From Nymphaea colorata (lineage: Eukaryota; Streptophyta; Magnoliopsida; Nymphaeales; Nymphaeaceae), in NCBI RefSeq assembly GCF_008831285.2, contig NC_045147.1, forward strand, positions 10,721,427 to 10,785,426: 64,000 bases of DNA, written 5' to 3'. Positions 13,897-14,468 of this stretch are shown here, piece after piece. The number at the start of each line of letters is the position of its first letter. Within the stretch, counting starts at the first letter, position 1. A program made the translations under genes and the position numbers. The notes below the pieces were generated by a model, which did no database searches, was not told where the DNA came from, and saw only the letters and a program-made list of their open reading frames with translations.

Positions 13897-14230
13897 ATAA
13901 CAAGTAAAAGAGGGTCTAGTAACAAGAAAAACAACAATTACACTGCAGCATTTATAGCCTTTCCCAGTGTTTAATAAGTGCACTCTCCCAGCACCCCACC
14001 AGCCTTGGGCATGCGCTGGTTTGGGAGAGACATTAGTTCGGCCGGCGGCAAAAGTCCTAGAAAGCACTACCGCCATTCCCGCTGACCGAACTAATGTCTC
14101 TCCCAAACCAGCGCATGCCCAAGGCTGGTGGGGTGCTGGGAGAGTGCACTTATTAAACACTGGGAAAGGCTATAAATGCTGCAGTGTAATTGTTGTTTTT
14201 CTTGTTACTAGACCCTCTTTTACTTGTTAT
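13897..14230. repeat. 334-bp palindrome with identical 145-bp arms
   Basis: The left arm (13897-14041) and right arm (14086-14230) are exact reverse complements over 145 bp. They surround a 44-bp centre that is itself partly paired. Both arms carry GCATGCGCTGGTTTGGGAGA or its complement. A transcript would fold into a very long perfect hairpin. There are no indels between the arms. The right edge lies 5 bp from the start of the importin/TRM13 duplicated block at 14236, and the parental locus at 40212 has no palindrome. It may be a foldback element, a recent inverted duplication, or a young hairpin RNA locus. I see no target duplication. Confidence 0.9.
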
Positions 14231-14468
14231 AGGTTCATGTCTACATCCTTCTTTAAGGATGACCTTCAGGCTATAGGTTCATGTCCGAGGCAGCGGATGG
14301 ATAAAGCCCGTTGTTCACAGAACTAGGAGACTGTATAGGGATGTACTATTTGTTATTGAAAGTTATAAACTAATAATTCAGAAATTAAGACTGCAAATTT
14401 TGATTTTGCATTTGAAAACCATTTGGGATTTTCTTTTTCTTGATCTGTCCATTTCGTGCTGCTTTCAG

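Follow-up and report, generated by a model that had tools for sequence, protein, structure and literature searches.

Foldback inversions in yeast arise via hairpins, some with 35–44 nt loops, and are followed by secondary rearrangements that proceed mostly by homologous recombination (PMC7467729). Foldback inversions and templated inverted insertions are also recorded at yeast double-strand breaks (PMC10622511), the insertions being mostly ~5–34 bp long (PMC11724301). A foldback Mutator-like element of Medicago truncatula, of the MuTAnT type, is 292 bp long with almost identical 144-bp arms, and MuTAnT insertions that fall outside TA repeats are reported to carry 9-bp target duplications (PMC4486113). 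In maize, segmental duplications bordered by transposon termini can result from alternative transposition (PMC4270019).

The locus described here is a near-perfect palindrome of 334 bp that borders a duplicated piece of a gene, within a 64-kb window (the whole stretch of DNA analysed, without any N). As in yeast foldback inversions, an inverted copy lies round a hairpin hinge, apparently with further rearrangement beyond it, but the arms are ~150 bp rather than mostly ~5–34 bp, the junctions carry microhomology where the yeast secondary rearrangements mostly use homologous recombination, and the genome is plant-like. Nearly the same arm length, a hairpin and TA beside the ends are shared with MuTAnT; however, there is no 9-bp target duplication, (TA)n tract, internal module or second copy in the 64-kb window, and one end lies at a duplication breakpoint. 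As in maize alternative Ac/Ds transposition, a duplicated segment is bordered by a possible element end, but there is no 8-bp target duplication and, in a flank-to-flank comparison, no matching element end past the other side of the duplicate. The mechanisms considered for this palindrome are of known kinds. Our preferred reading, to which we give a probability of about 0.5, is that foldback and template switching during repair left it as a scar, either when the left edge of the duplicate was made or when that edge was later repaired.

Architecture and folding of the palindrome

The left arm (13897–14041, + strand) and the right arm (14086–14230, − strand), an inverted copy of the left, are complementary at 145/145 positions around a 44-bp centre. 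The perfect 145-bp repeat reported in the first-pass annotation thus stood up to recounting, except that it ends at 14230, not 14236. Pairing extends inwards through 14042–14051 (+) and 14076–14085 (−), giving 155-bp arms (98%, three mismatches) and a 24-nt loop (14052–14075), within which the RNA fold adds a few more pairs. The mismatches are at 14042/14085, 14044/14083 (G-U in RNA) and 14049/14078, and two of the three are transitions. Taking the left arm as ancestral, positions 14083 and 14085 would represent C-to-T changes in CG and CCG contexts. Folded as single-stranded RNA, 13880–14250 reaches −306.1 kcal/mol (z −34.91), a stability matched by 0/100 dinucleotide shuffles, and the hairpin is not a product of chance.

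A search for other arm copies, which the first-pass annotation had proposed for the genome, was run in the 64-kb window and detected no second copy (BLASTN, E≤1), returning the self-match and words of 13 or 14 bp only. Exact arm words gave 0 matches in viral and prokaryote contig collections, a result that says little about plants. The two open reading frames across the palindrome matched 0 Pfam families at E≤0.1, no tRNA was found, and nothing was returned by a promoter/terminator scan, which is bacterial in design and unsuited to a plant.

The extreme hairpin (z −34.91) invites interpretation as a young inverted-duplication small-RNA locus of the proto-MIR type, with the hairpin under selection. 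At E≤5, Rfam gave two matches in 13800–14350, both below their gathering scores: MIR8670, covering the full model at 80.6 bits (gathering score 150), and mir-766 (39.9 bits; gathering score 110). MIR8670 also forms a long unbroken hairpin, but its letters match those of the arms at shuffle level, and homology was rejected: among 1000 dinucleotide shuffles in each of eight settings, between 178 and 501 scored as high. The score reflects hairpin shape. A young palindrome would also be identical without need of selection, and this interpretation is very improbable. The expectation that transcription would give a long hairpin is structurally plausible on the predicted fold, and a transcript across the palindrome would form a Dicer-type hairpin, with no function indicated. 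At the gathering threshold, the only Rfam match in the whole window is an SSU rRNA fragment.

A short-period self-complementary repeat is present at 22405–22484 and 22740–22920, in which 22406–22463 equals its own reverse complement (58/58).

The duplicate and its junction with the right arm

The gene fragment beside the palindrome is a truncated duplicate of the 3′ part of an importin-like gene. Segment 1 (14236–17727, +) corresponds to 40212–43771 (+), within that gene and without the palindrome, and segment 2 (17719–18939, +) to 50799–51960 (+). Both have the same orientation as their counterparts (BLASTN), and they adjoin in the duplicate but are 7 kb apart at the other locus. We take the 40-kb copy as source-like, because the importin-like gene around it is longer, with exon-like frames upstream. 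This copy gave no palindrome match (BLASTN), in agreement with the earlier observation that the source locus lacks one. We presume the gene to be importin-like, a name based partly on the first-pass annotation and on an IBN_N match below threshold in one of the six pieces tested (E=0.056; 13.9 bits, cut-off 21); two PDB searches with exon-based queries found no importin.

Two other derivations were rejected. Comparison of 13800–14700 with 39700–40700 gave, for the palindrome, only a 21-bp stretch of 81% identity, in both orientations, arguing against an origin of the right arm in the importin-like intron. For a larger terminal-repeat element around the duplicate, the best match between 11.0–14.24 kb and 17.6–20.5 kb was 18 bp (E=0.07), with otherwise only short repeats.

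Segment 2 of the duplicate contains a perfect, probably recent, tandem duplication of 68–70 bp (18500–18637). A third, more diverged partial copy (76–83%) of 51042–51198 and 52240–52600 is found at 62102–62730, so duplication of the importin-like 3′ region has happened repeatedly. The 7 kb separating the source-like segments include part of a bacterial-type SSU rRNA (49578–50092, −; Rfam RF00177, 340 bits), probably organellar DNA in a nuclear locus. Between the two importin-like copies, a 706-codon open frame (20070–22190, −) has PD40 and DPPIV-like beta-propeller matches, and GC content at 20–22 kb is 57% vs 32–34% in neighbouring 2-kb bins. Elsewhere in the window are a degenerate tandem array with steps of roughly 65 bp (57711–58337) and matches to REF, FMN-dehydrogenase and DUF659 pieces, with peroxidase and integrase-core matches below cut-off; taken together, these suggest nuclear DNA of a flowering plant.

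Homology to the 40-kb locus begins at 14236, five bases past the end of the right arm, as had been noted before; these five bases are AGGTT and are repeated nearby. Together with the last three arm bases they form TATAGGTT (14228–14235, +), which recurs 44 bp away at 14272–14279. Both occurrences directly precede CATGTC: the first CATGTC (14236–14241, +) marks the start of homology (site 1, 40212), and the second belongs to the same 14 bases, TATAGGTTCATGTC, at 14272–14285 (+), the equivalent of 40248–40261. The source-like locus correspondingly has its first CATGTC at 40212 and reads TATAGGTCCATGTC at 40248. The only further match to TATAGGTT in the window is on the other strand, at 55187. 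AGGTT plus CATGTC at 14231–14241 recurs at 14275–14285, and when the + strand CATGTC sites of the window are taken two by two (465 pairs), three pairs agree in the five preceding bases: this one and two (17971/51056 and 18538/18606) that lie within known duplicates.

The repeated TATAGGTT and CATGTC suggest that sequence derived from the importin-like locus meets the end of the arm or overlaps it, and on this evidence the importin-like sequence seems to reach the palindrome gap-free, through a 44-bp step back at CATGTC. Since TAT is also the arm's own end, independent evidence of copying is limited to AGGTT (5 bp). TAT (3 bp) is common to the arm end and site 2, and CATGTC (6 bp) to sites 1 and 2; both junctions therefore carry microhomology, as in serial template switching. 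The proposed link between palindrome and duplication breakpoint is strengthened by this microhomology, by the 5-bp gap, which looks copied from importin-like sequence, and by the lack of any detected target duplication.

On the source-like side, a perfect 10-bp inverted repeat with a 38-nt loop (40149–40158 and 40197–40206) ends 5 bp before 40212; it is suggestive only, because perfect inverted repeats of this type form 17 clusters in the window. Its right half shares a 9-mer, AGAGGGTCT, with the palindrome arm, a match of chance size.

An assembly or library artefact, in which the right arm or the importin-like join would be chimeric, is very unlikely. Inverted duplications are a known type of artefact, and 145 bp is near short-read length. 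However, an artefactual foldback would be expected to continue into the left flank rather than to stop at a microhomology junction with eight repeated bases, and there are already three differences between the arms in their inner 10 bp.

Divergence of the duplicate and age of the arms

Of 3480 aligned sites in segment 1, 206 (5.9%) differ from the source-like copy; for the 17719–18569 part of segment 2 the count is 54 of 850 (6.35%). Divergence is lower beside the palindrome, with 14/492 sites (2.8%) up to 14727 vs 192/2988 (6.4%) beyond (Fisher p=0.0013), and the best change point is at 15105 (31/870 vs 175/2610; permutation p=0.02). The first ~240 aligned sites of segment 1 look intronic, so that coding constraint alone would not account for this low divergence. 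In the coding-like part of the duplicate, pN is 0.042 vs pS 0.076, about half.

Finding no difference in 145 arm positions has a probability of 1.5e-4 at 5.9% divergence, 7.4e-5 at 6.35% and 0.016 at 2.8%; for three or fewer differences in the 155-bp arms the corresponding values are 0.017, 0.0098 and 0.37. The earlier suggestion that the palindrome is younger than the duplicate, or kept identical by conversion, is thus modestly supported by these comparisons: it is favoured by the perfect arms at the overall rate of segment 1 (P=1.5e-4), but is not secure at the local 2.8% (P=0.016) or with the extended arms (P=0.017 or 0.37 at these two rates).

Repair or transposition as possible origins of the palindrome

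In the preferred reading, for which we infer a polarity with the left arm ancestral and one event rather than several, a break at the left locus would have left a 3′ end that folded back, with a short GC-rich inverted repeat close to the centre as its hinge, and copied its own strand for ~150 bp, generating the right arm. Copying would have left the own-strand template at TAT, and 8 bp would then have been copied beside the second CATGTC of the importin-like locus; a slip at CATGTC would have led 44 bp back, to the first (upstream) site, and the remainder of the importin-like 3′ region would have been copied from there. We prefer this scheme because one polarity explains the stop of the arm at the junction, both microhomologies, the 8-bp repeat and the lack of a target duplication. 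It corresponds to one option of the first-pass annotation, formation during repair by, for example, template switching, which gains from the microhomology and the missing target duplication and is weakened by the age contrast and the arm length.

Several further observations bear on this scar reading. The coincidence of arm end and duplication junction counts for it, as does a GC-rich hinge inverted repeat (CGGCGG/CCGCTG, one G-U; our reading of the RNA fold), and the source-side 10-bp inverted repeat 5 bp before the breakpoint counts weakly. Over its outer 60 bp, the left arm (GC 0.30, AT skew 0.43) is somewhat nearer in composition to the left flank (0.27–0.29 and 0.32–0.39) than to the right flank (0.47 and −0.02). 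Against it, the inner 85 bp are unlike the left flank (GC 0.55, AT skew −0.16), and even the outer 60 bp depart from that flank in GC skew (0.00 vs −0.23). Two of the three inner mismatches adjoin the proposed priming point, and the TATAGGTT repeat could come from a separate 44-bp tandem slippage. Arms of the same age as the duplicate, at 5.9%, would be expected to carry ~8.6 differences in 145 bp; with none seen, a common age requires arm-to-arm conversion or a younger repair that refreshed the neighbouring sequence. The arm length, the recombination route seen in yeast and this age contrast all count against a repair scar.

The main rival is that the palindrome is a non-autonomous foldback transposon (a MITE or foldback Mutator-like element, or a Tc1/mariner-like TA-target element whose ends, ACAAGTAAAA...TTTTACTTGT, have TA on either side) inserted in or beside the duplicate, the breakpoint having been made by aberrant transposition or adjacent deletion from its left end. 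Size and anatomy match such an element, which from anatomy alone has a better prior than a scar: long terminal inverted repeats cover most of the element (145–155 bp arms in 334 bp), and TA is present at both ends (13898–13899 and 14228–14229), although this is weak evidence, since symmetric arms make palindromic dinucleotides cheap. Transposition would also explain arms younger than the duplicate, and the maize alternative transposition events offer a precedent (PMC4270019). The window also contains other hairpins of comparable size but lower perfection, e.g. at 12109–12332 (224 bp, imperfect over its whole length, 78%; its ends read GACT...AGTC and it resembles an old MITE) and 24094–24271 (~180 bp, imperfect, 67%, MITE-like).

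However, no target duplication was found at the ends, either of 8–12 bp with ≤1 mismatch or of 5–7 bp exact, across 27 × 27 end positions. In the same search space a 5-bp match is present in 0.5055 of random position pairs, so that missing short repeats mean little, while missing repeats of 8–12 bp are telling. There is no second copy in the 64 kb, and the arm lacks internal modules, unlike the four-segment MuTAnT: no internal hairpin was detected in four folds (z −0.85, −0.30, −1.46 and 0.12; 20 to 106 of 200 shuffles fold as well). An independent insertion 0–2 bp from the breakpoint would be a large coincidence, and the eight repeated bases would require a separate event. A transposon origin is somewhat improbable, though almost as plausible as a repair scar; if it is correct, the palindrome would be an ordinary young hairpin element marking the edge of the duplication by chance.

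The repair reading can be taken further, to a version we consider doubtful, in which one repair event made a foldback self-copy of ~150 bp and then, via 3- and 6-bp microhomologies, went on to copy several kilobases from a gene located 26 kb off. The less diverged tract (2.8% vs 6.4%) would then have been refreshed by repair, and the scar would have been a ready-made long hairpin gene at birth.

If the palindrome is a repair scar, it would be a natural one with legible junctions, in which the hinge, the arm length, two microhomology jumps and the repeated 8 bp can all be read. Templated foldback repair in a plant could then make arms of ~150 bp while copying a gene segment, and such arms would be long enough to seed small-RNA hairpins.
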